Virus record (IMG/VR): IMGVR_UViG_3300047551_001516
Span: 1-34,149 of that record
Length of the DNA stretch: 34,149 nt
Source: a virus
Strand: one strand, 5' to 3'
The number at the start of each line of letters is the position of its first letter. The stretch's first letter is position 1. A model generated the notes under the pieces. The model was not told where the DNA came from, made no database searches, and saw only the letters and a list, made by a program, of their open reading frames with translations. A program made the position numbers and the translations under genes. Below are positions 4,391 to 34,149 of the stretch, piece after piece.

Positions 4391-6562
4391 ATGTCAGAAA
4401 CCAATACAACAATTCACGATCAAATGGGTAAAAACGGATTCTTTTGGTTTCACGGTGTCATTGAAGATAATAAAGATCCATTAAAAATAGGAAGAGTTAG
4501 AGTTCGCTGTTTTGAATATCACACTCAAAATAAAGAAGAATTACCAACAGAAGATCTTCCGTGGGCTACAGTATTAATGCCTGTTACAAGTTCTTCTGTC
4601 AGTGGTAAAGGAATTTCGCCATCAGGACTATTGCAGGGGTCTTGGGTTATAGGATTTTTTAGAGACGGTAGCAATTTTCAAGATCCAATAGTTTTGGGTT
4701 CTTTTCATGGAATTCCAGGATATGCCGCTTCTCCATCTTTAGGGTTTAATGATCCAGATGGAAATTGGCCCAACAAAGATCATTTAAATGAACCTGACAC
4801 TAATAGACTTTCTAGGAATGAATCAACAGAAAAAACCATAGTAGAAAAAAAGAAAAAAGAAAAAATAGTGGGTGTAAAAACTGCGTTACAACCGTGGTTA
4901 AAATGGAATGAAAAAGAAACTTCTTATGCTGCTGAATATCCAAAAAATCATGTTATAGAAACAGAATCGGGTCACATAATAGAATTGGATGACACTCCCG
5001 AAAAGGAAAGAATAGGTGTATATCACAAAGCGGGAACATGGCTAGAAATACATCCAGACGGATCTAAGGTAGAAAAAGTTGTTGGAGAAGATAACGAAAT
5101 AGTTCTGTCAGATAAAAAATTACTAGTTAAAGGTAATTGTTATTTAAATATGGACGGTGCTGTAACCACGCTAAAAACTGCTAAAGATTTTTATATTGAG
5201 ATTGGTGGGGATGTTTTAGTTCACACCAAAGGAAATGTGGTTATGGAAACTGATAAAAATTTTGAACACCGTGTTCATGGTACTTATACTGTAGCAAGCG
5301 ATGGTGGAATGCTTTTTGTAGCACCAAGAATAGATTTTAATCCAGAAGGAGTTCAGCCAGGTCTTGCTTCTAGTCCTAATATGAGTTTAGGGCAAGCGTC
5401 TCCTTTATTAAAATCTACAGCAATACCTCCAGATGTTATAAGTAAACTTCAAGACAAAAATTCTAATTTGTTCTTAAATACAGACTACTTAAAAAATTTG
5501 AATGATCAAGGAGATATGTGGAAATCCGGAGGATCAAGTGCGTTGCAAACTGCAACGACCTCAACAAACACCCCAATTAAATCTTGGGGCGATAATCAAC
5601 AACAACTTGAAAATGTTGCAAATGGATATAACAATACAGCAACAATACCATCTAATCTTTCTGCTGAAACAATAGTAAGTGATGTTGATTCTTCTTCTCT
5701 TTATTCCGAAAAAGAAATACTTAATAAAAATAGAACACAAACTATAACAGATATAGGAACTCAGGAGCAAGTAATACAATCATCTCAGATAGAAAAAACT
5801 CAAGTTGATTCTGTTATTGCTGAAAGAGCATCTCAACAAACTCAATTGCAACAAGTTGTTGGTGAAAATAATGTTAATTTGATTACAACAAATCAAACAA
5901 CAATTTCTCAGTCTTCAGTTTCTACACAACTTACAACTACAAGTATACCAGAATCTACAAATATTGTTGAACCTCTAAGTCAAAATATTGGTGGAGTTTT
6001 AAATTCTATAGGAAATGAAATTTCTTCTATACCAACTGCTTTGAGTAATACTTTACAAAAACTATCACCTGGTTTAGATTTATCAAATATTGTCACAATA
6101 GGAGCAGGAATAGGTTTGGCTGGTGTTGCTGGGCCCGCTGGTGTTGTTGTTGGGGGTGCTGTTGGAGGGGCTTTAGCATTATTAAATCCGGCTGCTGCGG
6201 TTCAAGCAGTAAATACTGCGGCAAATGTTGCCGTAACTACAGTTCCATCTCCATCTTCATTCCTATCTAGCGGCCCACAAGATATAACAAATCTTAGCGC
6301 AGTTCCACTTCCTCCTGTTGGTGGTGGTCTAAGCGGATCTGTTTTAAATACGAACTTAATTGATATTGGGGGTCCTGGAATACCAACTCAAAGTTTGTAT
6401 GCAGTCCCTCAAGGAACAGCAACTTTAATATCTGCTTATCCAGGCAGAGAGACAAATGATAGCGCGATAAGAGGAATACCCGCAATACCAATAGTTGCGT
6501 TTGAATCTGAATTCCCAACAATAAAAGAAGACATAACAGAAATAGACGGTGGAGAATTCTAA
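4391..6562 (+). CDS. 5: Baseplate spike protein with OB domain and beta-helix (T4 gp5-like)
   Basis: The central membrane-piercing spike. Residues about 15-110 form a gp5-type OB domain (FFWFHGVIEDNKDPLKIGRV, PWATVLMP, WVIGFFRDG, DPIVLGSFHGIPG). A charged KKKKEK linker follows, then a beta-helix-like region (about 185-320) with repeats such as IETESGHIIELDDTP, TWLEIHPDGSK, YIEIGGDVLVHTKGN. No lysozyme domain, which T4 gp5 has between these parts, is visible. After residue 330 comes a long Gln/Ser/Thr/Asn-rich tail, with a Gly/Ala/Val hydrophobic stretch at about 566-600 (AGIGLAGVAGPAGVVVGGAV) and a proline/glycine-rich end. At 723 residues it exceeds T4 gp5 (575) despite lacking the enzyme. 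Its stop overlaps the next start as TAATG. Confidence 0.85.
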   Translation: MSETNTTIHDQMGKNGFFWFHGVIEDNKDPLKIGRVRVRCFEYHTQNKEELPTEDLPWATVLMPVTSSSVSGKGISPSGLLQGSWVIGFFRDGSNFQDPIVLGSFHGIPGYAASPSLGFNDPDGNWPNKDHLNEPDTNRLSRNESTEKTIVEKKKKEKIVGVKTALQPWLKWNEKETSYAAEYPKNHVIETESGHIIELDDTPEKERIGVYHKAGTWLEIHPDGSKVEKVVGEDNEIVLSDKKLLVKGNCYLNMDGAVTTLKTAKDFYIEIGGDVLVHTKGNVVMETDKNFEHRVHGTYTVASDGGMLFVAPRIDFNPEGVQPGLASSPNMSLGQASPLLKSTAIPPDVISKLQDKNSNLFLNTDYLKNLNDQGDMWKSGGSSALQTATTSTNTPIKSWGDNQQQLENVANGYNNTATIPSNLSAETIVSDVDSSSLYSEKEILNKNRTQTITDIGTQEQVIQSSQIEKTQVDSVIAERASQQTQLQQVVGENNVNLITTNQTTISQSSVSTQLTTTSIPESTNIVEPLSQNIGGVLNSIGNEISSIPTALSNTLQKLSPGLDLSNIVTIGAGIGLAGVAGPAGVVVGGAVGGALALLNPAAAVQAVNTAANVAVTTVPSPSSFLSSGPQDITNLSAVPLPPVGGGLSGSVLNTNLIDIGGPGIPTQSLYAVPQGTATLISAYPGRETNDSAIRGIPAIPIVAFESEFPTIKEDITEIDGGEF

Positions 6563-7566
6563 TGCCTAGATTTTCATCAGGAACAAGATATTCTTCAGGA
6601 GGATACAGCAGAGTTTGTGTTATTCCTGCCGAGTGCCACATTTCAGATGGTTCTTCAGTTTATGGTAATACAGGCCCAAAGGATTGGGGAGTTTGGCAAG
6701 GCAGATATAGTCACTATGGTATGAGACCACCTGAATTTTATTACCCAAATGGTCCCTATAATGTCGAGGGAACACAAATAACAACAGTAACGGGTTGTCA
6801 TGCAGTTGGTTTAAACACATTTAACTGTTATAGTGTTTCTCCTGGTTCTGGTGAACCTCATACAAGACCTGTTACAACAAGTGTAAACGAACCAGAAACA
6901 AGATGTCTTATAGTTTTTGGTGGTAGTAGAGGAATAACAGAAAAAAATACCACTATACTTAATTCAAATATTGGATCCTTTAGAGAGGGGCAAAAGATAG
7001 CAAAAGGATCTCAAAGAATAACATTTTATGCTTATCCGTCACCACCCCCACCGACATTTTATGCAGGAGGAGTGTATGCTTCCGCGTTTGGGGTTGTTTA
7101 CGGCTGTAATGATTGCTGTGATATTAAATACATGGTTGTGTCTGGTGAATTTCCACCAAATTTAACCTTAGACATGGAAACGGGAGAGGCATACGGTTTT
7201 ATATCTGAAATGGATTTACCTGATAATCCAGGAGATCCTACATCCAAAGATTATTTTATGGAAAGATGGAGATTGCCCCCCGATTTCAGGATAAATGAAA
7301 AAAATTATGCTACGGTAGGTTCTGCTTCGTCTTTTAGAAACGGAAGAGGAGCAGAAAATATTGCAAAATTTGTAATAAGAGCGTTTAACGCTAGAGATCC
7401 AAGAGTGTTTACAGACAAAGAATTTAGCATAAGTATATCAAACAACTGGTCTTCTGACCGCGACAGATTGATAATAAATATTAATAATCAATTTTATGTG
7501 GACGGAAACCCAACAAGTAATAAAGAATATTTAAATAAAATGAAAGAAAGAGGATTTTTCGATTAA
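6562..7566 (+). CDS. Putative spike-associated Ig-like protein, cysteine-containing
   Basis: I do not recognise a close named family. The 334-residue product sits between the spike and the PAAR tip, suggesting a baseplate-centre structural role. Residues about 190-220 read SGEFPPNLTLDMETGEAYGF, close to the putative-Ig (He_PIG) pattern 'sGxlPpgLtld..tGxisG'. A carboxyl strand FVIRAFNARDPRVFTDKEFS fits the end of such a domain. The amino half is Gly/Tyr/Pro-rich. Cysteines occur at VCVIPAEC, TGCHAVG, FNCYS and CNDCCD. It begins by a TAATG overlap with the spike gene, with GGAG upstream, and ends by another TAATG overlap with the PAAR gene, so the three are probably translated together. Structural role inferred from position. 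Confidence 0.6.
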   Translation: MPRFSSGTRYSSGGYSRVCVIPAECHISDGSSVYGNTGPKDWGVWQGRYSHYGMRPPEFYYPNGPYNVEGTQITTVTGCHAVGLNTFNCYSVSPGSGEPHTRPVTTSVNEPETRCLIVFGGSRGITEKNTTILNSNIGSFREGQKIAKGSQRITFYAYPSPPPPTFYAGGVYASAFGVVYGCNDCCDIKYMVVSGEFPPNLTLDMETGEAYGFISEMDLPDNPGDPTSKDYFMERWRLPPDFRINEKNYATVGSASSFRNGRGAENIAKFVIRAFNARDPRVFTDKEFSISISNNWSSDRDRLIININNQFYVDGNPTSNKEYLNKMKERGFFD

Positions 7567-7865
7567 TGCCAGGAGTAAGCACACAAGGGGATATATGTAG
7601 CGGTCATGAGTGTTATCCGCCTCGTCAGGTTATCGCTTGGTCTAGTAATGTTTTTGTAAATAGCAAAGGATGTCACAGACAATTTGATGGATTGGGGCCT
7701 CATTGTGATCTGTGTGATAAACATCACCCATGCCACATTTCAATGAGTATACAAGGGTCTTCACAGGTTTATGTTAACAGCAGGCAACTTATGAGAGTTG
7801 GAGATCCCGTTGCCTGCGGTTCATCCATAGCAACAGGAAGTAGTAATGTTCACTGTGGAGGGTAA
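7566..7865 (+). CDS. 5.4: PAAR-domain spike tip protein (T4 gp5.4-like)
   Basis: A 99-residue PAAR-type protein expected to cap the gp5-like beta-helix as a sharpened conical tip that punctures the host envelope. The PAAR pattern is visible: MPGVSTQGDICSGHECYPPR at the amino end, VFVNSKGCHRQFD, a Cys/His-rich middle (HCDLCDKHHPCH), and VYVNSRQLMRVGDPVACGS near the carboxyl end. Cys and His residues probably bind one metal ion at the apex; the middle segment is richer in them than a minimal PAAR protein. AGAGGA lies upstream, and the start overlaps the previous stop (TAATG). Family assignment is strong; its place on the spike follows from the family and from gene order. Confidence 0.88.
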   Translation: MPGVSTQGDICSGHECYPPRQVIAWSSNVFVNSKGCHRQFDGLGPHCDLCDKHHPCHISMSIQGSSQVYVNSRQLMRVGDPVACGSSIATGSSNVHCGG

Positions 7866-21140: not shown

Positions 21141-24100
21141 ATGCCAGACGGAGCAACAGGGCCAACAGGAGTAAGCGGTAACAGCATTATAAATGCTGGT
21201 CTATCTGGCGGTAATTTAATCATAACAATTCAAACATTTGATTCTAGTCCTCCAGGATTAACATATAACATTGATGTTGGTTATGTTATAGGATCAACCG
21301 GTGTTACAGGACCGCAGGGAGCAACAGGTGCTACAGGTGCTGCTGGTGCTGTAGGTCAAACGGGTGCGTACATAACTAATGCTGCTGTTGTTGGCGGCAA
21401 TCTTATAATAACCTTATCAACAGGAATTACATTTAGTGCTGGTAATGTTGTTGGTCCAGCAGGAGCAACAGGATCAACTGCTTGTATAGGAGGAAGTGCT
21501 GGTTGTGTTCCTTGTTGCAACCCACTTCAAGGAATTGGTGGAACTTCATTTTCTTGTGATAATCTAATTCAAATAGATCGTCTTGTTTTATCAGACACAT
21601 TTCACACTTGGTATGATAGAACAAATCAAATAATTGATGCTATAAATCCTTTAAATTTATATGAAATAGCGGGATTGACAGGTATTGAACTTGTAACAGG
21701 TAAAGGAAATTGTAATTACAACGGTGTTGTTGGAATTTCTTTTAAACATGGTCCAGGTATAACTTGGGGTAATCCAGACTCAGTTTCAGGAAACAGTGAT
21801 TTTTACAAGAAAATGTTTATTGATCCAGGAACTCTTCCAATACAAGAAGGATTATTTTCTGTTGCTAATAACGACTTGTTCATATTTAAAGACATAAGCG
21901 ATACATCAACAGTTTACTCAGGAACACCAAAATCAGTTCGCGCTGAGTACATGGTTCCGCCTCGTTTAACTTTTGATACTTTAGAATTAAATGGTGATGT
22001 TTTAATTAATGGAAACTTTACAATTCTTGGTGATCAAAGTAGTGTAGGAACAAATGATATTGTAGTTGAAAGCAAAAATTTAAATCTAGCGTTTCAAAGA
22101 TCCGGATTAATTACAATAACCGGCCCATCTGCTAGCATTCTTCAATTATATCAATTTGAAATTGTTGGTGCTTCTGCTTTCTATGACACTACGGGAAACA
22201 ATCCTGGATTAACTGCTCCGACAATTGGCGTAGTTAAAAGTATTACAGGTCCAGCAAATGGATTGACTGCACATGTTTCAATTGGTTCCATTTTCCAATC
22301 AGGTAACCCAGATGATTTTCAAACTGGTGGATTTGTTAGATTCAAATCTGCTACAGGTGCTACATTCTCTGTTTTGTCTGCTGATGGAGCAACAACGAAT
22401 TTCTTCGGTGATTCGGATTTAGATGGCGCAGGAATCATAGTAAAAGGAGCAAGTGGAGACAAATACTTTACTTGGGAAAATTGTAGTAAAGCATGGATAT
22501 CAGATAAAAATCTTGGTGTTGATACTAATCTTGGTTTTATAACTGCAAGAAACTATAGAAATGTTTGTTTGATTGGTGATGGATTAAACGAATTTAACTT
22601 TTATGGATCAAACGGTCAAACAGGACACGCAACACTAAGAATCGGTCATGATGATGCTGGTAGATGGGCTTGGTCTTATGCTCATAATTTGTCTGGTTCT
22701 CCTTTGTTGTTAAAAAATGATAGCACAACCGGAACTTCAGAATTAACTTTATCAACAATATACGGTCAAACACACGGTCCCCACAATTTCACAACTGCTC
22801 TTGGTGGAACCTCAAACATGTGGGCAAAGGGGTTCAATGCTGATTATTTGGATGGTGCAGGAGCAACCACAGGAAGTCCATATGGAGGAGCGTATGAACC
22901 AAACGATGGCAACAAAGGTTCTACTGCTTATACCATCCCAATATCAGATGTTAGAGGAAGAATAAATGCAAATTGGCTTGATGCAGATTCAACGAGAATT
23001 CGTGTATATCAACAAACACACGGATTAACAGCAGGAAATTGCATAACAAGACAAATAGAAACTGCAATGGGCCCAACCGCTGCTCATTATATTTTGGCTA
23101 GTCCTTACTCAACAGATTTGTCTGAAGCAATAGGAATTGTTGTAGAAGTAATAAACGACAATGAGTTTGTATATGTAAATTCAGGATTGGCTACAATTCC
23201 TGTTCCGGGAGATATTAAACCTGGTATATCACTTTTGTTAGGAGCAAGTGGTGGCTTAACATCAGATTTTGGTAATTTGGCTGAAGGCTCTTTCTACATT
23301 GAGAAGAGCATGTTCATGCCAATATCAATAACAGGAAGTGTTTCTAATAGATTTGCAACAGGTGTGGTTTTAGCACAACCTGGATTCTTAGTTGGTGGTT
23401 CAGCGTCAGACCAAATTTACGCTAAAGGATTAGTTCCTGTAGGAGCAATCAATTCGTATTCAGGGTTCTTGGGAGAACTTTCAGATTCATGGTTGGTTTG
23501 TGATGGTAAGAAGATTCGTCCTGGAAATTATCCTGAACTTTACAAAGTTATTGGATTAACAGGCGGTAGTTCCCCACTTCAAAGATACTATGCCGATTTA
23601 AAACTTATAAATTCTTCTTCAGAAGCATTTATTGACGAAGACTCACAAAATGCTGGACCGGGAAATGGAGTTGCTTCTTTTTATATCAAAGGAGGAACTC
23701 GTGGGTTTTCAGAAGCATCTGGAAATCGTGTAACTGAACAAGGCGATCTTGTAACAATAACAATTTACTCAAATGTAACAAAATCTGTTGTTGCTTCTCA
23801 CGACGCTCGTGTTTGGGTTATTGGAGGAGATTACCAAATATCTCTAGCACTAAGAAAAGCCGATCAAGATGGTTATACTAGAGAAGAATTTATTCAAGAG
23901 TTGGATAATGTAAAGGATAATAAAGATTATTCAATTCGTCTATACGGTAGACACAGAACAGACGCTCTAAGTGTTTGGGGAACAACACTTCTTCCAGACT
24001 TTAGAAACAGAACCATTTATGGTGCTGGTGCAGGAACAAATGAAAACGATAACGGAGCGCAAATGGTTGTTGGTGATGTTATCAACAATCAAAGTTATCA

Positions 24101-25061
24101 AATAGAAAATGGAATTGTAAGACCTTATGGTGATGGTGTTGATGGATTAAGTGGTACAACAGGTGCAAGCGGAAGTTATGTTTACACTCCAGGTGTTGTA
24201 ACAAATTTTATTATTCGTTCTAAACCTGAGGTGAATGCTTTAATTATAACAGGTCACAATCACGATGATCGTTATGTCAGAATAGACATGACTGCTCAAG
24301 CACAACTTCATACAGACTCTGGATTAACAGCACAAAAGAGAGCAAACGCTCGCTATAACATTCAAGCAATGTCTAGAGAAACTGGTGATGTTCACTCAGG
24401 GCCAGCAGGAATAACTTTCCAAAGTGAAGGACAATACAAATTCCGTGCTTCTTCTTCATCTTCAAATGCTGCAAACATAGAAATAGAAAATGAATATGGT
24501 TGGAGCAAAATTAAACTCGGAGGTGCTTCTGGTTCAGTTATTGATATAGCATCACCTTTTGACAATACAGCAACAGGAATAACATCTGAAAATTATGACA
24601 TTAGATTTATTTCGGACAATTCAAAGGCTCAAATTGTTGCAGGAGGAAACCTACCTTTACTAATAAATGTAGGTGGTTTAACAGGAATAGAAAGAAGTTG
24701 GGGAATTTCCATTACAGGAACCACAGGATTGTCTGCGGGTTCTGTGGGAATAAAAACATCAAATCCTGTAATGACACTTGATGTTCGTGGTTCGGGTATA
24801 AAGATAGGCCCAAGTATTTACGAAGGAAATACAAATACTCCGGCAGGAAATTGGAACACAAGACCATTAGAAGGTATGTTCTATGGTGGTATGTTTAATT
24901 CTACAGGATTAACTACTTTAGGAGTCAGTTTAACTATGGGAACTTCTTTATTCCCAGAGAATCCAAATGGAATTTATACAATTGATCCAGGATCCGGCAT
25001 AAGTATATTAGCAGGAAATACAGTAACAATTCAGTCTGGATTTACATGGAAAATTTTGTGA
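21141..25061 (+). CDS. Large tail fibre with collagen-like segment and collar domain
   Basis: A 1306-residue fibre. Residues about 50-78 are collagen-like (TGVTGPQGATGATGAAGAV) and a shorter GPAGATG lies near 108. A cysteine group, CIGGSAGCVPCCNP, follows at about 115-128. The LNGDVLINGNFTILGDQ segment near 283 is a common fibre beta-strand module. A phage tail collar domain appears split: SDSWLVCDGKKIRPGNYPEL near 777 and LLPDFRNRTIYGAGAG near 950, separated by about 150 residues. GHNHDDRYVR near 1039 gives a His-x-His element typical of short-fibre and collar regions. AAGGAAGG supports the start. It is probably a receptor-binding or short tail fibre; equivalence to T4 gp12 is uncertain. Confidence 0.82.
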   Translation: MPDGATGPTGVSGNSIINAGLSGGNLIITIQTFDSSPPGLTYNIDVGYVIGSTGVTGPQGATGATGAAGAVGQTGAYITNAAVVGGNLIITLSTGITFSAGNVVGPAGATGSTACIGGSAGCVPCCNPLQGIGGTSFSCDNLIQIDRLVLSDTFHTWYDRTNQIIDAINPLNLYEIAGLTGIELVTGKGNCNYNGVVGISFKHGPGITWGNPDSVSGNSDFYKKMFIDPGTLPIQEGLFSVANNDLFIFKDISDTSTVYSGTPKSVRAEYMVPPRLTFDTLELNGDVLINGNFTILGDQSSVGTNDIVVESKNLNLAFQRSGLITITGPSASILQLYQFEIVGASAFYDTTGNNPGLTAPTIGVVKSITGPANGLTAHVSIGSIFQSGNPDDFQTGGFVRFKSATGATFSVLSADGATTNFFGDSDLDGAGIIVKGASGDKYFTWENCSKAWISDKNLGVDTNLGFITARNYRNVCLIGDGLNEFNFYGSNGQTGHATLRIGHDDAGRWAWSYAHNLSGSPLLLKNDSTTGTSELTLSTIYGQTHGPHNFTTALGGTSNMWAKGFNADYLDGAGATTGSPYGGAYEPNDGNKGSTAYTIPISDVRGRINANWLDADSTRIRVYQQTHGLTAGNCITRQIETAMGPTAAHYILASPYSTDLSEAIGIVVEVINDNEFVYVNSGLATIPVPGDIKPGISLLLGASGGLTSDFGNLAEGSFYIEKSMFMPISITGSVSNRFATGVVLAQPGFLVGGSASDQIYAKGLVPVGAINSYSGFLGELSDSWLVCDGKKIRPGNYPELYKVIGLTGGSSPLQRYYADLKLINSSSEAFIDEDSQNAGPGNGVASFYIKGGTRGFSEASGNRVTEQGDLVTITIYSNVTKSVVASHDARVWVIGGDYQISLALRKADQDGYTREEFIQELDNVKDNKDYSIRLYGRHRTDALSVWGTTLLPDFRNRTIYGAGAGTNENDNGAQMVVGDVINNQSYQIENGIVRPYGDGVDGLSGTTGASGSYVYTPGVVTNFIIRSKPEVNALIITGHNHDDRYVRIDMTAQAQLHTDSGLTAQKRANARYNIQAMSRETGDVHSGPAGITFQSEGQYKFRASSSSSNAANIEIENEYGWSKIKLGGASGSVIDIASPFDNTATGITSENYDIRFISDNSKAQIVAGGNLPLLINVGGLTGIERSWGISITGTTGLSAGSVGIKTSNPVMTLDVRGSGIKIGPSIYEGNTNTPAGNWNTRPLEGMFYGGMFNSTGLTTLGVSLTMGTSLFPENPNGIYTIDPGSGISILAGNTVTIQSGFTWKIL
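21291..21368 (+). repeat. Collagen-like Gly-X-Y coding segment
   Basis: About 26 codons encode near-continuous Gly-X-Y triplets (for example GPQGATGATGAAGAVGQTG) inside the large fibre gene. Such segments form triple helices in phage fibre trimers. The DNA is only partly repetitive here, using GGTGCT/ACAGGT variants. Confidence 0.75.
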
Positions 25062-25069
25062 GGTGAATT

Positions 25070-26050
25070 GTGTCGAAACTAGAAGTAGATGTATTAAAAT
25101 CCGTTACAGGAAGTTCCATTGCGTTTGAAAGAAAGTTAATTGTAAAAGATTCAACAGAAACTTTTGAAGCATTTGTTTCTTCTACTGCTGGTAATTTTAT
25201 TACTGGATTAATATACACGGGTACAGAATACGATAACACACCAGGAATTTCAGGTCAGATTCTTTTTGGTAGTGATGGTCCAACTTCTTCGGTCTCTTGG
25301 AAATTTCCTCCTGTTCCAAGTTTAGTAGGAATAGAAAAAGGAACTATCGTTCCGTGGATTGTAAACTATAATCCATTCTGTCCATCGGGAAGTTTACCTC
25401 CAGTTCCTACAACAGATAATATACCAGACTGGGAGTATTGTACCGGAAGAAATGGAACACCAGATTATAGAATAACAAACCCGTTTTCTCCAACAGGAGG
25501 AAAAGAGTTTCCTCCTTTTTCTTCTTCGGATATTGTTGTAACACTTCAGGTAACGGGCCCTACTACAGATATAAGAAGACTTTATCAAACAAATAATTTA
25601 GAAAGATTAGTATTTTACGGAACATCTATATGCGGTGATAGCGGTCCTACAACACAATGGGCTTTAGGCCCAACAACTTCGTCAACTATAGGAGTGTTGT
25701 TGTCTATAACTGGACCAACTGTTGTTGGCAATTCTCAAAGACCAACTGGAGTTCCAACACACGAGTACGCTGTTATTGTAATAGGAGGAGCAACAGGAGA
25801 AACCGCTTCTTTATGGGAAAACGCTCAAAGAGTTCCTCAACTAATTGTTTCTGGTTATGTTGGAGAATTTTATAAAGGATCTCCAACAGATTTTACAGTC
25901 AACGGATACATTAATTTTAAAACAGGAACTGGAACAATATTCCGAATACACAATATTTCCTCCACGGAATACATACAACCAGCAACAGTTCAACCTTGGT
26001 TAAACCGTTGTAGATATAAAAATTCCATTTCTTATTTGAGAAGGTTGTAA
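25070..26050 (+). CDS. Tag-bearing fibre protein with collar-like segment
   Basis: A 326-residue product starting with GTG at 25070, preceded by GAGGTG; its amino tag MSKLEVDVLKSVTGSS is shared with the next five genes. GIEKGTIVPWIV at about residue 87 and PDWEYCTGRNGTPDYRI at about 118-134 resemble the opening of a tail collar domain ('P.GW..CDG.ngTPDlR'). A beta-rich region follows and the protein ends SISYLRRL, similar to collar ends. Cysteines are at NPFCPSG, EYCTG, ICGDSG and NRCRY. It is probably a small tail-fibre or baseplate-tip protein that binds the virion through its tag. Inferred from motif and neighbours; receptor unknown. Confidence 0.65.
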   Translation: MSKLEVDVLKSVTGSSIAFERKLIVKDSTETFEAFVSSTAGNFITGLIYTGTEYDNTPGISGQILFGSDGPTSSVSWKFPPVPSLVGIEKGTIVPWIVNYNPFCPSGSLPPVPTTDNIPDWEYCTGRNGTPDYRITNPFSPTGGKEFPPFSSSDIVVTLQVTGPTTDIRRLYQTNNLERLVFYGTSICGDSGPTTQWALGPTTSSTIGVLLSITGPTVVGNSQRPTGVPTHEYAVIVIGGATGETASLWENAQRVPQLIVSGYVGEFYKGSPTDFTVNGYINFKTGTGTIFRIHNISSTEYIQPATVQPWLNRCRYKNSISYLRRL

Positions 26051-26051
26051 A

Positions 26052-27977
26052 ATGTCAGAAATTAAAACCAACAAAGTTGTTTCCGCATTAAACCCATCAA
26101 AAGTAACATTTAAAAATGGTATAAGTGTTGTTGATTCAAATAGTCTTTCAGATAGAAATAAATCTTTTGGTGTTAACGAAAACGGACAAATTGAAATATT
26201 TAAACAACTAAGTGTTTCAACTTATGGTTCTGTAAATTTTGGAGAAGACAAACAAGTTTTAATTTCTAGAGGAATAAAAATGCCTCCAGTATGGGCAAGA
26301 GTTCCTCCATCTCCTTGTCCTCCTTTGCAAAATGTTGGAACAGCATGGGCTATAGGAGTTAATGATGTTGGAAGTTTAGCAAGATCAGACACATCTACTC
26401 CTTATAATTCAACTGAAGGAGAATATACAGTTCAAGATTGTTGTCGCATAGGTTTTGGTACTACAAATTTCTCAGGATATGGATCACCTAAAGCAATTCC
26501 AGGAGAAAATATTGACGGTATTCAAGATAAAAATTGGTATTACATATCAAAAAGTGGTTTCTATGCTATTAAAACAGACGGAACATTATGGTCTTGGGGG
26601 TCTTCTTGTAGGGGAAGACTAGGAACTGGTTTTGGTTTTGGTGCACCTAATAACGGTTGTGGTAACTGTATAAGTCCTGGTGATAATTGTAATAACGATT
26701 ATAAAACAGGAAAATCTAAACCACAAAGAATAGGAACAGCAAGTGATTGGATACAAGTATCTGGTAGTTTACAAGGTGCTTTAAAAACAGATGGAACTAT
26801 TTGGGTTTGGGGAGACGGAGAAGACGGAAGAAGAGGAGATGGAATTGACAATACAAATAGTATAGTTTGGGAACCAGTTCCTTTACAAAACAATTCTGGA
26901 GGATACGATTCTGATTGGATTTTCTTGAGCGACAATAGATCAGGTGTAACTAAAACTTTTAAAGCAATAAAAAATAATAGAACTTTGTGGTCTTGGGGTA
27001 AAGGAGGAGAACCCGCGCACGGGTTTTCATCCTCCTCAAGTCAAATTTTAAAACCTACGCAGGTTGGCACAGATACAGATTGGGTTTATGTTTCAGGATC
27101 AAAAGGAATAAAAGCAAATGGTTCTTTGTGGTCTTGGGGCAGATCTGGTTCTGTCGGAGACGGAAGAATTACCGGTAATCAAACAACTCCAAAACAAATA
27201 TCAAGCGATAAATGGTTAAAGGTTGTTGAAACTGATCCTGCTGGTGGTAGTAATTCCGTTTGGGCTATAAAGCAAGATGGCACTTTATGGGCATGGGGTT
27301 GGAATTTTTCAGGAAGATATTTGGGTGTTGGAGAAACTGATCCACAACAAGAAGGGTACGGTTGGAATCAATCTACACCACCATCAGGAAAAGTTAATTT
27401 TGTTAAATCTCCAATTCAAGTTGGAGAAGACAGTGATTGGGTTGATGTTGTTCCTGGTTCTGTTGGAGCAATGTTATTGAAAAGTAATGGAACAATTTGG
27501 TGGGTTGGAACGGGATACAGTATTACAGGATGTACAAATTGTAGTAGTACAACTCAAGCGGATTACGCTTACACGCCAAGACAACCAACAAACTTTAAAA
27601 ATATTTCAATTTCTTCATTGGGGTACTATGAGAGTTTTCATTTTCAATTTATTGCAGAAGAAATTGCTGCTGTGCCAGAAAGTACAATGATAAAGTGGAT
27701 TCGTAGAGGATTTACTTCTTTAAAAAATACTCCTTGTGTTAATCCAATAATAGGATACGCTGGCTTGGGATCTTTGATAGGAGAAATTCCACCTCCTACA
27801 GGATACAAATACGCTGACGGTTCTTTAGGAACAATAAACATGAAAAGTTATTTTAATGCATTAACAGGCAAATTAGATTGGCCTCCAGTTGATGGTACAG
27901 ACGGATGTGGAGATTCTCCTCAAAATTTGAACGGGACAATAGACGGGCAAATAACTTACATACAGAAAACAACATAA
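26052..27977 (+). CDS. Fibre protein with RCC1-type beta-propeller between tag and collar-like tip
   Basis: A 641-residue product in three parts. Residues 1-85 carry the shared tag (MSEIKTNKVVSALNPSKV). Residues about 95-500 hold repeats of RCC1/propeller type, each with an '(A/L)(I/L)KxDGTLWxWG' core: AIKTDGTLWSWG near 173, ALKTDGTIWVWGDG near 243, AIKNNRTLWSWGKG near 304, GIKANGSLWSWGRSG near 352, AIKQDGTLWAWGW near 404, and a degenerate LLKSNGTIWWVGTG near 475. TAWAIGVND near 97 may be a seventh. The end has EIPPPTGYKYADGSLGTINM, a degenerate collar pattern. GAAGG precedes the ATG. The propeller probably displays a binding surface. RCC1 assignment is strong; receptor binding is inferred. 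Confidence 0.8.
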   Translation: MSEIKTNKVVSALNPSKVTFKNGISVVDSNSLSDRNKSFGVNENGQIEIFKQLSVSTYGSVNFGEDKQVLISRGIKMPPVWARVPPSPCPPLQNVGTAWAIGVNDVGSLARSDTSTPYNSTEGEYTVQDCCRIGFGTTNFSGYGSPKAIPGENIDGIQDKNWYYISKSGFYAIKTDGTLWSWGSSCRGRLGTGFGFGAPNNGCGNCISPGDNCNNDYKTGKSKPQRIGTASDWIQVSGSLQGALKTDGTIWVWGDGEDGRRGDGIDNTNSIVWEPVPLQNNSGGYDSDWIFLSDNRSGVTKTFKAIKNNRTLWSWGKGGEPAHGFSSSSSQILKPTQVGTDTDWVYVSGSKGIKANGSLWSWGRSGSVGDGRITGNQTTPKQISSDKWLKVVETDPAGGSNSVWAIKQDGTLWAWGWNFSGRYLGVGETDPQQEGYGWNQSTPPSGKVNFVKSPIQVGEDSDWVDVVPGSVGAMLLKSNGTIWWVGTGYSITGCTNCSSTTQADYAYTPRQPTNFKNISISSLGYYESFHFQFIAEEIAAVPESTMIKWIRRGFTSLKNTPCVNPIIGYAGLGSLIGEIPPPTGYKYADGSLGTINMKSYFNALTGKLDWPPVDGTDGCGDSPQNLNGTIDGQITYIQKTT

Positions 27978-27978
27978 A

Positions 27979-28485
27979 ATGTCTGAATTAAATGTAAACA
28001 GAATAATTTCACAAACCCCAACAGGAGAATTAATTGTTTCTCCCGGAATGGTTGTTGGTATAGGATCTTATCCAAAATTTGAAGTAACAGACACAGGAGA
28101 TGTTAAATTTTTTGGTGCTATTTTATTAGGAACTCAAACAGGAAATACGCACGGTGGGGAAATGCAAATGGTTTCTTCTAGTGGTGAAGGCACAATTAAA
28201 TGGAGAAATTATGTTTACGAATGCCCCATTATAGATAATGGTATACCCGCAAATTCAATTTTGGAATATATTGTTACTGGCTTTTGTGCTGGTTGCACTA
28301 CGAGCACTGTTGGAGAACCAACTGCTCCTCCAGGATTTGCTTTTTGTGATGGTTCAAATCAAACGCCAGATTTTAGAAGCACCTTAAATACAAATACAGG
28401 ATTGATAGATTTTGAACACAGTTGTAACACACCAAACTCATTTCTTTCTGGAGTATGGACAAAATATTTAATTATTAGATTATAA
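27979..28485 (+). CDS. Short tag-bearing fibre protein with collar-like end
   Basis: A 168-residue product with the shared tag MSELNVNRIISQTPTGEL at its start. Residues 95-130 read GFCAGCTTSTVGEPTAPPGF then AFCDGSNQTPDFRS, a recognisable tail collar opening ('P.Gf..CDGs.qTPDfR'). The last residues WTKYLIIRL fit a collar terminus. The body between tag and collar is short (FEVTDTGDVKFFGAIL), so the gene looks like a minimal version of the same design as its two upstream neighbours. It starts one base after the previous stop with only a weak ribosome binding site, suggesting coupled translation. Confidence 0.68.
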   Translation: MSELNVNRIISQTPTGELIVSPGMVVGIGSYPKFEVTDTGDVKFFGAILLGTQTGNTHGGEMQMVSSSGEGTIKWRNYVYECPIIDNGIPANSILEYIVTGFCAGCTTSTVGEPTAPPGFAFCDGSNQTPDFRSTLNTNTGLIDFEHSCNTPNSFLSGVWTKYLIIRL

Positions 28486-28494
28486 AGGATTTTT

Positions 28495-29316
28495 ATGTCA
28501 GAACTAAAAGTAAATTCAATAGCACCTTTAACAACAACAGGAATTAGATTTAACAGTCCTGTGGGTATTAACACAAACGCTCCAACATCAGGATTACAAA
28601 TTAGTGGAAAATTGAATGTCATAGACAACAATATAGAAGTTGTTACTGTCGGTGCTCAAAATTACGGAATAAAAATAAAAGCAGCACCGTCAACTGGAGA
28701 CTCTGTGCTTCAATTTGCAAACTATGATGGTTCCGAAAGAGCACACATTAAATCTTCAGTTCTTGGAGATTTGATTTTTAATACAGGTGGAGCAACTGCC
28801 GCAGTAATGGGTTCTGATGGTGTTTTCAATATGCTTCAGAAAACTATATTTAATAGACCAGTAACTGTTAATGCAACAAGTAGATTTAATAATCAAGCAA
28901 ACTTTTTGAGCAATTTTATCCCTAAGTGTAGTGGAGTTCCAACAGTAGACGATCATCTTGTTAATTTTGCATATTTAAAAAGATTTGTTTTAGGAACAAA
29001 TACAATAAAAACATGGCAAGTGTTTGGAAATATAGACAATGGAGGTAGAGGTGGATGTTGTAGATATTTTAACGGATCTACCTCTACAGGATCTTACTAT
29101 GAAGGATTGCCCGGAAAATGGGTTGTTATAGGTTTTAATTTTGGAGCAAGATCATGTTCTTGCAGAGACAATGAAACTTTTCATTTTCCAATAGACAATT
29201 CTGCGGTTTGGATGCAAACAGATTCTTCAGTTAGACAAAAAATAGCACAATATCTTGGAACGAATATTTACAGTGCATTTGGTATGGCAATAAGAGTTGA
29301 TATAGGTGAAGCATAA
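28495..29316 (+). CDS. Tag-bearing fibre protein with cysteine-cluster tip (paralogue 1)
   Basis: A 273-residue product with the shared tag MSELKVNSIAPLTTTG. It aligns along its length with the next gene: SGKLNVIDNNIEVVTVG against SGKVVVENSGAEVVTVA, NFIPKCSGVPTVDDHLVNFA against NYIPKCPGEATEDDHLINLG, and LPGKWVVIGFNFGARSCSC against LQGTWICIGFSFGDRGCSC. Cysteines occur near 146, as a CC pair near 188 and as CSC near 221-223. The end, FGMAIRVDIGEA, resembles the last strand of fibre tips. AAAGGA precedes the start. I cannot name the tip family; the role as a fibre is inferred from the tag, the 'kC..P...dhlvn' module and the neighbours. Confidence 0.65.
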   Translation: MSELKVNSIAPLTTTGIRFNSPVGINTNAPTSGLQISGKLNVIDNNIEVVTVGAQNYGIKIKAAPSTGDSVLQFANYDGSERAHIKSSVLGDLIFNTGGATAAVMGSDGVFNMLQKTIFNRPVTVNATSRFNNQANFLSNFIPKCSGVPTVDDHLVNFAYLKRFVLGTNTIKTWQVFGNIDNGGRGGCCRYFNGSTSTGSYYEGLPGKWVVIGFNFGARSCSCRDNETFHFPIDNSAVWMQTDSSVRQKIAQYLGTNIYSAFGMAIRVDIGEA

Positions 29317-29317
29317 T

Positions 29318-30310
29318 ATGTCCGCAACAAAAACAAATATAATATCTGGATTAGGTTCAAATGGTGTAATTATAGATTGCCCTGTTGGTATTAGTGCAAA
29401 TAACTCTTCAGAAGGTTTGGTTATAAGTGGAAAAGTTGTTGTTGAAAACAGCGGAGCAGAAGTTGTAACTGTTGCTAGTGAAAATTTTGGAGTAAAAATT
29501 AGAGGACTTACAGGGCCAGCACTGATATTAAGAAATATAAATCAAGGGTATATACGAAATCCCTTTGAGTCTAGTGTGTTCTTTTCAAGTGGTGCTGGAG
29601 GACAAACTTCAGGCAGAAGAGCAGATATAACATCAACAATAGACAAAGATATAAGATTTAACACTTCACCTAAAAATTTAGGTCTTACAGGCCCAGTTTT
29701 TACTAATGCTGGTGGAGCAACAGGAGGATTGTACATAACAGAAACTAATTCTGTTTTTTCAGGAAATATTAGTTTAAATGATGTTATTCAATTTGGAATA
29801 ACAGGTTCTCCTTTTAACGGCGAGTGTAGATTTGATGCAAATTATATTCCAAAGTGTCCTGGAGAAGCGACCGAAGATGATCATTTAATAAATTTAGGAC
29901 TACTTCAACAAATTCTTTTAGGTTCAACAACAGTTAAAACTTGGTCTGTTGCTGGTGGTCTTGATAATGTTGGATGGAAAATGGGAAAGGTTAGAAGTGG
30001 CAATTTCTTTCTTAAACTTTTTGGGTTAAATAAACCAAAATGTTGCTGCGGTTGTCAAACACTTCCAGGCGCAACAAATCCAAAATCTTATACCGAACAA
30101 CTTCAAGGAACTTGGATTTGTATAGGATTTTCTTTTGGCGATAGAGGATGTTCGTGTTATGACAATGAAGAAAAGCATATACCAATAGATTATTCTGCGG
30201 TTTGGAAAATAACAAATAATAGTGTTAAAAACACTTTACCGGCAAACCTGTCAGGAACTTATAGTTTGTTTGGTATTTTAATAAAACCTTATTACGATAT
30301 TTCTCCATAA
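29318..30310 (+). CDS. Tag-bearing fibre protein with cysteine-cluster tip (paralogue 2)
   Basis: A 331-residue paralogue of the preceding gene. The start is taken as ATG at 29318, one base after the previous TAA, because its tag (MSATKTNIISGLGSNG) then aligns with the neighbours; a GTG at 29306 would add four residues inside the previous gene. It contains extra inserts compared with its paralogue (RNPFESSVFFSSGAGGQTSG, and a longer loop with KCCCGCQTLPGATNP near residue 242). The CSC pair in RGCSCYDNEE is kept, as is the HIPIDYSAVWKI core. Probably a fibre tip subunit. Whether the cysteines bind metal or form bonds cannot be told. Confidence 0.65.
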   Translation: MSATKTNIISGLGSNGVIIDCPVGISANNSSEGLVISGKVVVENSGAEVVTVASENFGVKIRGLTGPALILRNINQGYIRNPFESSVFFSSGAGGQTSGRRADITSTIDKDIRFNTSPKNLGLTGPVFTNAGGATGGLYITETNSVFSGNISLNDVIQFGITGSPFNGECRFDANYIPKCPGEATEDDHLINLGLLQQILLGSTTVKTWSVAGGLDNVGWKMGKVRSGNFFLKLFGLNKPKCCCGCQTLPGATNPKSYTEQLQGTWICIGFSFGDRGCSCYDNEEKHIPIDYSAVWKITNNSVKNTLPANLSGTYSLFGILIKPYYDISP

Positions 30311-30316
30311 ACATCA

Positions 30317-30324
30317 AATAAATA
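30317..30324 (+). promoter_or_regulatory. Possible internal late promoter motif
   Basis: AATAAATA, identical to the motif at 350-357 and seven of eight to TATAAATA, lies in a 32-base gap, one of the wider gaps in the fibre array. Start would fall just before the AAAGG ribosome binding site of the gene at 30343. AT-rich sequence makes chance matches likely. Confidence 0.35.
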
Positions 30325-30342
30325 AAGGTAAAAGGAAAACAC

Positions 30343-31314
30343 ATGTCTAACATTAAAGTAAACACAATAGAAGCACAATCAGGAAATTCTATTGTAAGCA
30401 ATTCTTATATTAAATGTAGCATACCACCTATTCAACCAAATGACTTGGTTAACAAACAATATGTGGACAGTATACTACCAACTATACCAACTACTTCTAC
30501 AGTTTATGTTGACACTCAAGATCAGTTTTACGCACAACAAGCAGATTTAAAATTTGTAGATAAAGCAAATGATATTCAAGAAACCATAACAGGAACAAAA
30601 ACATTTACCAAAAGACCTAAATGTTCTTTGGTTCCTTCTGGACCCGAAGATTTAACGAATAAAGAGTATGTAGATTCGCAAAAAGGAGCGGCAGTTATTG
30701 AATCAAATTTATATACTGACACACAAATATCGGCTTTTCAGATATCACAAATTGGCCCATACTATAGATTTTTTGTGACTTCTGCAATTACAGGAGCAAG
30801 TGCATCGTTTACAGATCCAGTTACAAATTTAACCGCTAGAGGATATTATACATTATATGCAGACACTGGTGGTGGTGCAGTTTTCTTTGATGGAATAAAT
30901 GGAATATCAATTACTGCATCTGACGATGAGGAAACTTATAATAAAGTTATAGAAATTGATGGTGTTCCAGGTGTAACTTCTGCAACAGAAATTGTGAACA
31001 GAATAATTATAGACGCAAAAGCATTAGGTCATGCACCACAAGTGTGGACAAACATGCTTAGTAGCAGAAGCAACGGTACAAATTATGTAAATACAACAAG
31101 TAGACCTATCATGGTAATGGTTAAACCTGATTTTCAAACATCGGTTCAAATATCAGTTGGGGCAACACATACCGGTGGGGGAATGGTTACAATTTATAGC
31201 AATAACAACTCTATGGAACCTCCTTCATTTGTTGTTCCAATAAGTCATGTTTATAATGTTACTTTTGGTTCTTTCCCAACTTCTCCTAACGGATCTTGGA
31301 TGGAATTGCGTTAA
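30343..31314 (+). CDS. Tag-bearing tail fibre protein with 'LxNKxYVDS' repeats
   Basis: A 323-residue product starting with the shared tag MSNIKVNTIEAQSGNS, after AAAAGGA. Two copies of a fibre repeat follow: IKCSIPPIQPNDLVNKQYVD at about residues 26-45 and CSLVPSGPEDLTNKEYVDS at about 90-108, a module widespread in phage tail fibres and matching the shorter 'PKC..P...DDHLIN' element of the two preceding genes. GTKTFTKRPK between them is also a common fibre strand. The carboxyl part (from about 140) is beta-rich and ends FPTSPNGSWMELR. It is likely a trimeric fibre. The upstream 32-base gap may hold a promoter. Confidence 0.7.
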   Translation: MSNIKVNTIEAQSGNSIVSNSYIKCSIPPIQPNDLVNKQYVDSILPTIPTTSTVYVDTQDQFYAQQADLKFVDKANDIQETITGTKTFTKRPKCSLVPSGPEDLTNKEYVDSQKGAAVIESNLYTDTQISAFQISQIGPYYRFFVTSAITGASASFTDPVTNLTARGYYTLYADTGGGAVFFDGINGISITASDDEETYNKVIEIDGVPGVTSATEIVNRIIIDAKALGHAPQVWTNMLSSRSNGTNYVNTTSRPIMVMVKPDFQTSVQISVGATHTGGGMVTIYSNNNSMEPPSFVVPISHVYNVTFGSFPTSPNGSWMELR

Positions 31315-31328
31315 TTAAATGTTAAATT

Positions 31329-31850
31329 ATGAGCAACGATCAAAATGAACTTCAAAATAAAGCCTATCTTTTTCTAGCAAAAAAACAAGCAGAAGAAATA
31401 GCAAGAGAAAACTCTAGTTCTATTTTTGAATACTTAAAACAACAAGAATTTAGACTGCTTCAAAACGATTCAAAAATATTAGAAACATTAAAACAGTACA
31501 CACAAGAGTGTTTACAAAACTACATTAAGTTTTGTGCGGCAGAGGAAAACTCTGTTGTTAATGAAGAGTATCCTGTTGGATCAATAATTTCTGTGTCGGT
31601 AACATGCTCTGAAGAGGAAGGTAATCTTCCGTATTTAATTACGGGATTAAAAGTAAACTCCACCCTAAACAACATTTATCTAAATAATAGTGAAAAACAA
31701 GGTCAAGTTTTTCACTGGTTTGGTGGAAAAGAAGTTAATAGTAGTGATTTTTTTAAAATGCCTGGTGTTTGGAAGTCTAGGGGAATTTGTGGTGGATTTA
31801 GCAATGAAATAGTAGGATTTAAATACTATCTTGCACAAAGGGTAAAGTAA
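31329..31850 (+). CDS. Small tip-like protein with helical amino end
   Basis: A 173-residue product. Residues 1-70 are predicted helical and charged (AYLFLAKKQAEEIARENSSS, LLQNDSKILETLKQYTQE), perhaps a coiled coil. From about 83, YPVGSIISVSV begins a beta-rich tip whose end, MPGVWKSRGICGGF and FKYYLAQRVK, resembles the 'PGxWxxxGxxxG' tips of the genes at 28495 and 29318. It lacks the shared amino tag, so it may be an accessory tip carried by another subunit. No good ribosome binding site is seen before the ATG. Its stop overlaps the next start as TAATG. Family unknown to me. Confidence 0.55.
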   Translation: MSNDQNELQNKAYLFLAKKQAEEIARENSSSIFEYLKQQEFRLLQNDSKILETLKQYTQECLQNYIKFCAAEENSVVNEEYPVGSIISVSVTCSEEEGNLPYLITGLKVNSTLNNIYLNNSEKQGQVFHWFGGKEVNSSDFFKMPGVWKSRGICGGFSNEIVGFKYYLAQRVK

Positions 31851-32184
31851 TGGCAGTATCAATCAATCACGACATGGATCAAGGTGCTAATTTTGCGTTT
31901 AGTATTGTGGCTAAAGACTCCGCTGGTAATCCTATTGGATTGTCAGGTAGTACTGCACACTGTCAGATGCGTAAATATTATACATCAGAAACTGCTATAA
32001 CTCTCACAACTTCAATAACAGGTGGAACCGGATACATTATAGTTTCTATGGGCCCAACCGCAACCGCTGCTGTAAAGCCAGGCGTTTATTTTTACGATGT
32101 TGAACTGCATTCCAATAACAACACTATGGTTCAGCGTCTTGTTCAAGGAATGATTACAGTATATCCTGAAGTCACGAAAATCTA

Positions 32185-32185
<1 letters not shown>
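31850..32185 (+). CDS. Small virion protein, BppU-like beta-sandwich
   Basis: A 111-residue product with the pattern 'vdqGanfxfxixxxdxxGnpixLtGxtaxxqmR... G.i.vsmgp.[16 protein letters not shown].... [17 protein letters not shown]'. This matches a small beta-sandwich family common beside fibre genes in T4-like aquatic phages and similar to the amino-terminal domain of BppU baseplate proteins. Visible parts are [45 protein letters not shown] and VYPEVTKI. It joins its neighbours by TAATG overlaps on both sides, so it is probably made in ratio with the collagen-like fibre and may anchor it to the virion. Confidence 0.65.
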
Positions 32186-33229: not shown

Positions 33230-34149
33230 ATGCCTCCTATTCAAATATCTTTAAAGAAAACCGACACAGATCCTACTTCAGCAGCAGGATTAACTCTTGC
33301 TGAACCAATTTTTAATGTTACAAACAATACATTATGGGTGGGTAAAGGAACAGGAAATTCTCCTGTATGGATAGGTTCTCCAGTAACAGGGGCTAGCGGA
33401 GCAATAAATTCAGGATTAGTAGGATACTTACCAACAACAAGCGCGGTTAAAGACTATGTTCTTTCTGTTACTCCGTTTAATTATGTTTCTAGTTGGAACG
33501 GGTTAACAGGTGCGGTAAATTATTCTCCACCTTTAGCCACCTCAAGTGTTACAGGTGTTGCTTCTTTTGGTAGTGGGTTTTTAATTTCTGCAACAGGTTC
33601 GGTTAGTTTAACGGGTGTTGCTAGACTAAACACATTCAATATTTTTACACAAGATCAACAAATTCGGAAAAGTGATGCAAAATTTACATTGTTTGATACA
33701 GGAGCAGGTAGTGATACTAGAATATTAGAAATAACACCTTGGCAAATACATTTACAAGATGCCGATGCAGGATGGGAACAATATGTTAGTTTACCAACTG
33801 GTTCCAATGAGAATTACACGGTTGTTGGAGACTCTTTATCTAACACCTTTACAGCAAGAAATAATTTTTCAGCAGGATTGAGTGCTGCTAATATTTTAAT
33901 AGTTGGTGGGGCTACATTTAACAGCAGCATATCTGCTCCAAACATAGTTAACTCTGTAAACAGTATAACTGGACAAGTAAACATAGTTGCTGGTAACAAT
34001 ATATCCATTACCGCAGACACAGAAAATCCAAATTCATTGATAGTGTCTGTGTCAGCATCTCTTTTAGGCCCTCAAGGCGTTCAAGGTGCTACAGGAGCAA
34101 CTGGCCCTCAAGGCGTTCAAGGTGCTACAGGAGCAACTGGCCCTCAAGG
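33230..34149 (+). CDS. Collagen-repeat tail fibre protein (partial)
   Basis: An open frame begins at ATG 33230 and runs past the window end without a stop (306 full codons seen). The start reads MPPIQISLKKTDTDP then PTSAAGLTLAEPIFNVTNNT and LWVGKGTGNSPVWIG, resembling phage fibre amino ends with the 'GEPxfxxxxnxLyVGxG' module. The middle is beta-rich (SSWNGLTGAVNYSPP, SVNSITGQVNIVAGNN). From about residue 280 it enters collagen-like repeats of a 12-residue unit GPQGVQGATGAT, which continue to the edge. Upstream AGAAAG is a weak ribosome binding site. It is probably another fibre; the carboxyl tip lies outside the window. Confidence 0.72.
   Translation, partial: MPPIQISLKKTDTDPTSAAGLTLAEPIFNVTNNTLWVGKGTGNSPVWIGSPVTGASGAINSGLVGYLPTTSAVKDYVLSVTPFNYVSSWNGLTGAVNYSPPLATSSVTGVASFGSGFLISATGSVSLTGVARLNTFNIFTQDQQIRKSDAKFTLFDTGAGSDTRILEITPWQIHLQDADAGWEQYVSLPTGSNENYTVVGDSLSNTFTARNNFSAGLSAANILIVGGATFNSSISAPNIVNSVNSITGQVNIVAGNNISITADTENPNSLIVSVSASLLGPQGVQGATGATGPQGVQGATGATGPQ
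34067..34149 (+). repeat. 36-base collagen repeat at the window end
   Basis: Two identical 36-base units (34067-34102 and 34103-34138) encode GPQGVQGATGAT, and an 11-base third partial copy (34139-34149) is cut by the window edge. Part of the unit (GCAACTGGCCCTCAAGG) is shared with the 27-base repeats of the preceding fibre gene. Confidence 0.88.

Follow-up and report, generated by a model that had tools for sequence, protein, structure and literature searches.

Ackermannviridae phages carry branched tail-spike complexes (TSP1-4), in which several receptor-binding proteins (RBPs) share N-terminal mounting parts (PMC11414711). In RB49 and S16, the gp38 adhesin is a tip that is encoded apart from the fibre and attached at its distal end, whereas T4 carries the tip in cis on gp37 (PMC9569957). 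Here we describe six consecutive genes at positions 25070-31314 of the IMG/VR virus record IMGVR_UViG_3300047551_001516 (34,149 bases; the whole stretch is referred to as the window), which represents the tail region of a T4-like phage. All six genes start with one short N-terminal tag, and sequence comparisons indicate that they form a cassette for tagged tip proteins that is real, conserved and modular. Cassettes of several RBPs and tips encoded as separate adhesins have been described before, and a tag-based tip cassette would be a new variation on them.

The locus is like that of Ackermannviridae in that putative RBPs are encoded together, with common N-terminal mounting parts, variable C-terminal tips and a Gp10-like branching platform; the adjacent genes have alignable N-termini and divergent C-termini, as expected for a multi-RBP cassette. 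However, the Ackermannviridae mounting parts are whole domains (XD, TD and anchor) and the tips are tail spikes, whereas we find a tag of ~10 residues and collar, propeller and cysteine tips. Since the six proteins gave no Pfam or PHROG match to XD or TD domains, we do not file the cassette as an Ackermannviridae-type member. The likeness to gp38 lies in a separately encoded tip, with relatives that carry the tip fused to the fibre. Yet the long tail fibre carries just one such adhesin, the monomeric gp38, whereas here three to six paralogues stand behind a collar/Gp10_C-type fibre, and the likeness is in working only, as the six proteins have no match to gp37/gp38 in Pfam or PHROGs. By analogy, the cassette would work like a mixture of the two systems, without the defining domains of either. 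A likeness to T4 gp12 and Gp10 lies in the Collar domain, which occurs in homologues of the fibre upstream of the cassette and, recognisably in relatives, in the tips of one homology group (group A, see below). T4 has one gp12 gene, whereas several tagged paralogues with collar-type tips are present here, one of them bearing an RCC1 propeller.

Results

The six open reading frames (ORFs) are all on the + strand, with intergenic gaps of 1-32 nt, and share the start MS.[LI]KVN.I; the genes were as described and the tags as quoted in the initial annotation, which had been made from the letters of the window. To score the tag we used a matrix of 8 columns trained on 13 different tags, which came from unrelated IMG/VR contigs and from cultured cyanophages. 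It placed the six starts at ranks 1-6 among the 24 window proteins, for which the probability by chance is 1/C(24,6) = 7e-6. The weakest of the six, MSKLEVDVL of gene 1, scored -1.1 bits and the next-ranked protein -1.8; orthologues of gene 1 have canonical tags (MSELQIDKI and MSELKVDTV). Scanning IMG/VR with MSE[LI]K[VT]N.I returned at least 119 stretches, nearly all at the starts of ORFs longer than 100 aa, as compared with 16 stretches, mostly in very short or broken frames, for the codon-permuted control of the pattern. At loci chosen without regard to the tag, 28 of 391 N-termini carried the motif, as against 23 internal sites in 186,261 residues, an enrichment of ~145-fold. Thus, the tags align above chance, a point on which the initial annotation had made its reading depend, by the matrix ranking as well as by the pattern scan against the permuted control. 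We found no earlier description of the tag in the open-access literature, and its profile had no credible match in the PDB.

The relatives were gathered via the tag pattern, the upstream fibre and the small gene at 31850 directly behind the cassette (the 31850 gene); a locus search with gene 6 and a tblastn search of cultured phages with gene 4 found nothing. G001, G006 and L158 have all six genes in an identical order, which together with the window makes four phages, and the proteins of these relatives are 31-65% identical to those of the window. Four further relatives (G002-G005) carry three tagged genes, and other relatives have none. BLAST among the cassette proteins separates three homology groups: A (genes 1-3), B (genes 4 and 5) and C (gene 6). 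In G003-G005, BLAST assigns one member to each group (group C weakly); in G002, which is frameshifted, the groups were assigned by eye. In this last phage (L156) the fibre is split into many frames by indels that look like sequencing error, and its gene count is less certain. The most economical reading of these comparisons is that the six genes arose from the three homology groups through tandem duplication. The occurrence of six, three or no tagged genes at one locus is also the kind of gain and loss in the population that the initial annotation had proposed to look for.

The relatives further indicate that tips are exchanged inside the genes, beyond the stalk, between orthologues as well as paralogues. 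The window and G001 have a common C-terminus of gene 6, and a different one is carried on the same stalk in G006 and L158. The group B stalk (to about residue 160) bears other tips in the three-gene phages. In the third tagged gene of L088, a collar tip stands on a group C stalk; over 48 residues, this tip is 73% identical to the tip of the first tagged gene of the same phage. Where tips have been swapped, the junctions fall beyond residue ~70 (at ~72-110 and ~115-220), and the DNA of the tag is identical at just 12-21 of 27 positions between paralogues. Because of these two observations, exchange at the tag itself, which the initial annotation had envisaged as the site of recombination, is not supported; the order of the six genes, too, is kept between relatives.

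In agreement with the initial annotation, three of the bodies behind the tags have collar-like ends, one of them with an inserted RCC1 propeller; two are cysteine-tip paralogues and one is an NKxYVDS fibre. In group A, gene 1 (25070..26050, +), which has a GTG start and the eroded tag, encodes a stalk and a collar-like end interrupted by an inserted domain (residues 159-293; 25544..25948, +). The insert is homologous to residues 324-411 (up to 414) of the upstream fibre (BLASTP E 1.4e-4 for the window and 1.2e-7 for the G001 orthologue); with its ~130 residues it is present in the window and G001 and missing in G006 and L158. It appears to be a copy of a domain of the neighbouring fibre within the same genome. 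Gene 2 (26052..27977, +) encodes a stalk, an RCC1-like propeller (about residues 93-520; 26328..27611, +) and a collar-like end. It resembles a gene-3-like protein with the propeller (roughly 400 residues) placed between its halves, as its flanks align to gene 3 in two pieces. The RCC1 repeats exceed the Pfam cut-offs of about 22 bits (PF13540, 37.5 bits; PF00415, 37.4 bits), and a model of gene 2, of low confidence (mean pLDDT 43), gave a Foldseek match to UVR8/HERC2 (E 1e-14). Gene 3 (27979..28485, +), the shortest, consists of a stalk and a collar-like end. The collar-like ends of genes 1-3 are under the Pfam cut-off in the window (gene 3, PF07484 13.4 bits versus the cut-off of 24), whereas homologous tagged genes pass it (L088 gene 1, 30.7 bits; L088 gene 3, 28.1 bits). 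Strong RCC1 matches, in several stretches, were also seen in an untagged 1160-aa protein of L201 (5997-9479), which contains an internal tag-like stretch, GDLHVNAIETLG, at residue ~568.

Group B comprises gene 4 (28495..29316, +), with a cysteine-rich tip, and its paralogue gene 5 (29318..30310, +), which is 42% identical to it and has the same cysteine tip; we took the ATG at 29318 as the gene 5 start, the GTG at 29306 giving merely an in-frame extension. The CC and CSCxDNE of the tip are invariant in 8 proteins from 4 phages. An AlphaFold model of gene 4 (mean pLDDT 47) had no significant match in a Foldseek search. Gene 6 (30343..31314, +) represents group C, with an NKxYVDS stalk (repeats NDLVNKQYVDS and EDLTNKEYVDS) and an exchangeable tip. 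We also considered a separate late promoter before gene 6: ATAAATA-/CTAAATA-like stretches occur in the six-gene phages, yet they share no exact TATAAATA, and this candidate was set aside.

The gene upstream of the cassette (21141..25061, +) encodes a collar/Gp10_C-type baseplate fibre of 1306 aa, which we propose as the mounting fibre. All 12 of its homologues scanned have the Collar domain and 4 of the 12 have Gp10_C; the Collar match (PF07484) of the window fibre itself, at 21.2 bits, is just under the cut-off of 24, and the L181 fibre scored 40.4 bits. A mounting role would fit by analogy with T4 Gp10. The fibre that stands before canonical tagged genes has ~200 extra C-terminal residues, which end in GFxWKI[LIV] or GYTWKII. 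This conserved C-terminal cap (24939..25058, +; ..YTIDPGSGISILAGNTVTIQSGFTWKIL) is a candidate docking end. It is present in the relatives with canonical tagged genes and absent from those without them; even the distant L166 has the cap (z 22), with an overall fibre identity of only 33% and different bodies in its tagged genes.

Fibres of relatives without a cassette match the window fibre as far as about residue 1092; beyond that point come unrelated tips. In these phages, found via the 31850 gene, only -1 to 15 bases separate the fibre gene from the 31850 gene, and in 9 of the 11 records that were searched over their full length (17-177 kb) the tag pattern is matched nowhere; one of the 9, L170, has the looser tag-like starts MGNIKADSI and MSKIKTDII. 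In G003-G005, tagged gene 1 has a collar tip with 36-41% identity to the fused fibre ends of L181 and L182; the best match is between tagged gene 1 of G003 and residues 896-1063 of L181 (E 1e-29). This collar tip also matches the fibre ends of L177, L192, L173 and L203. A second tip family behaves likewise: L189 and L195 have fibre ends that match the L170 gene 2 tip (E about 1e-16). A separately encoded tip with fused counterparts in relatives was therefore seen in two tip families, the simplest reading of which is that the tagged proteins supply in trans the tips that are carried in cis elsewhere, mounted at the same fibre end.

Cultured cyanophages have comparable loci. In the Kyanoviridae Syn1, S-WAM2, ACG-2014j, P-HM1 and S-RIM32, and not in S-RIM8, the tail-fibre run consists, like that of the window, of a capped long fibre and then one to three genes that start with MS.[LI].V..I or more loosely; it lies before gp13 where the stretch reaches it. 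Three of the five cyanophages were reached through tagged proteins, and they do not make an independent count. The tagged bodies differ from those of the window, matching phrog_6942 and phrog_2415, and are annotated just as hypothetical or tail fibre proteins. S-CREM2, for which a virion proteome has been published, has no tagged gene at the corresponding locus.

Related fibre ends are more widespread. At loci L234-L353 we noted that viral contigs very often contain fibres ending in P[IV]T[IV]xxGVTVTVPSGSxW[TV][IV]V-stop, and the genes that follow such fibres start with M..TINGTG.I.G, M.IKLN..GGSVTL, MFGISAFAQSPF or MS.LKVNSI. The fibre-plus-follower layout looks like a general arrangement.

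Two untagged genes close the cassette. A companion gene of 173 aa (31329..31850, +) lies behind the last tagged gene; it has a helical N-terminus and the end ..FKYYLAQR, part of a conserved SRGxCGGFSxEVVGFKYYLAQR, and no confident family match. It occupies the same place in the six- and three-gene relatives and is absent in L166 and L170. The tagged gene of L198 ends similarly, in FLAQRIS. The 31850 gene (31850..32185, +) matches phrog_1084 (E 4e-24) and phrog_3304 (E 7.5e-18), the latter named 'L-shaped tail fiber protein assembly', a label given by similarity only. It is very widely conserved and in the same place with or without tagged genes.

Upstream, the window has the gene order tube cap, gp53, gp5, PAAR tip, a gp25-sized gene (labelled by size and position), gp6, a gp7-like gene and gp8, after which come a DUF4815 protein, a small coiled coil, the collar/collagen fibre and the tagged genes. 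The PAAR-type spike tip in the baseplate region (7566-7865; Pfam PF05488, 38.3 bits, cut-off 27) is preceded by a 334-aa protein (6562-7566). Another fibre gene (33230-34149) runs off the window; its start, MPPIQISLKKTDTDPTSAAGLTLAEPIFN, which is followed by a collagen-like repeat, is an N-terminal type distinct from the six tags. The closest cultured relatives by gp6 (35-37% identity) are Melnitz, HTVC008M, Mosig and cyanophages, and the phage with the six-gene cassette is kin to phages infecting ocean bacteria.

Discussion

The tag, the homology groups, the duplication, the exchange of tips and the distribution of tips in cis and in trans are all apparent from the sequences. From these we infer that the tagged proteins are present in the virion as trimers, bind receptors and dock by the tag at the fibre end. 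Our favoured explanation, which we hold to be slightly better than even, is that the cassette encodes separate tips for a T4-like baseplate fibre, mounted by the tag at or near the end of that fibre. The product of each tagged gene would be a fibre on a short stalk, probably trimeric, that bears the tag at the base and, at the other end, a tip of the receptor-binding type. The upstream fibre ends in the conserved cap where relatives without a cassette bear a tip of their own, and the tagged proteins would most likely mount on or beside this capped end, so that one virion could present several specificities. In this account, the set grew from three ancestral types by tandem duplication and diversifies by exchanging the part beyond the stalk.

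Several observations weigh against this explanation. The tag is also found in unrelated phages, behind quite different genes, and one copy, that of L201 (residue ~568), is in the middle of a protein. The AlphaFold models of genes 4 and 2 leave the tag unresolved, and we found no virion proteomics or structure for a tagged protein in the literature. The cap is a common fibre ending, as an unbiased scan returned at least 120 stretches with such ends, and most caps are followed by other recurrent fibre starts: a tagged gene follows 14 of 102 distinct caps (by regular expression), against a background of 52 of 1,191 ORF starts. The idea of a tag-specific socket was downgraded on these counts, tagged genes being ~3.5-fold enriched behind caps but the caps clearly not exclusive to tags. 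Finally, the joint presence of cap and tag among relatives is confounded with shared descent, which the Fisher tests ignore.

Some of these points would suit a tag that does no more than begin the fibre fold, as a first beta-strand and a turn by which the trimer is brought into register; the six proteins, still fibres or tips, would then attach at different baseplate sites through other surfaces. The alternating pattern LKVNxI followed by a second strand-like stretch, the presence of the tag in very different phages, the copy inside an L201 protein and a comparable internal stretch in Mosig are what such a start would predict, and other fibres behind caps also begin with short recurrent motifs, such as MPITINGTG. 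We nevertheless consider this explanation rather unlikely, given the ~145-fold enrichment at N-termini over internal positions and the likeness of the tag letters across three groups whose stalks BLAST cannot align, which is more than a generic strand needs. The initial annotation had proposed that the tag docks all six proteins to the same virion site or to a chaperone. The common site is supported indirectly, since phages without a cassette have homologues of the tagged tips fused onto the upstream fibre. A handle by which a chaperone, such as the 31850 product, loads all six could be argued from the position of that gene directly behind the cassette and its match to a family named for tail fibre assembly. 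But that label comes by family name only, and because the gene is equally conserved and placed in phages without tagged genes its product cannot be specific to the tag; we regard such a handle as the least probable of the explanations, and the role of the product may be structural instead.

It could also be that the six proteins are alternatives, one or a few being made or packaged per virion or host while the rest serve as a reserve for switching. That the number of tagged genes varies from none to six between relatives, and that the tips of the same gene differ between them, is compatible with this idea. However, all six genes are intact, closely packed and on one strand, and their order is kept in four phages at 31-65% identity, which suggests that all six are probably used; nor did we notice inverted or silent copies among the ORFs of the window, although no search was aimed at such copies. 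We therefore think a reserve of alternatives improbable. Returning to tips mounted by the tag at or near the fibre end, a bolder form of that explanation, which is possible but doubtful, is that the fibre has outsourced its tip to a plug-in set, the capped end being the socket into which a ten-residue tag, shared by many marine phages, fits. Gain, loss or exchange of tips could then leave the fibre itself unchanged. The three-gene sets that recur, of types A, B and C and also as three genes in S-WAM2, ACG-2014j and L166, raise the possibility of hetero-oligomeric tips.

If the explanation by tag-mounted tips is true, the tag would provide a sequence handle for tip genes in uncultured aquatic phages, in which RBPs are usually unrecognisable by similarity, and the cassette would be a natural example of a tip moving from cis to trans on a baseplate fibre.

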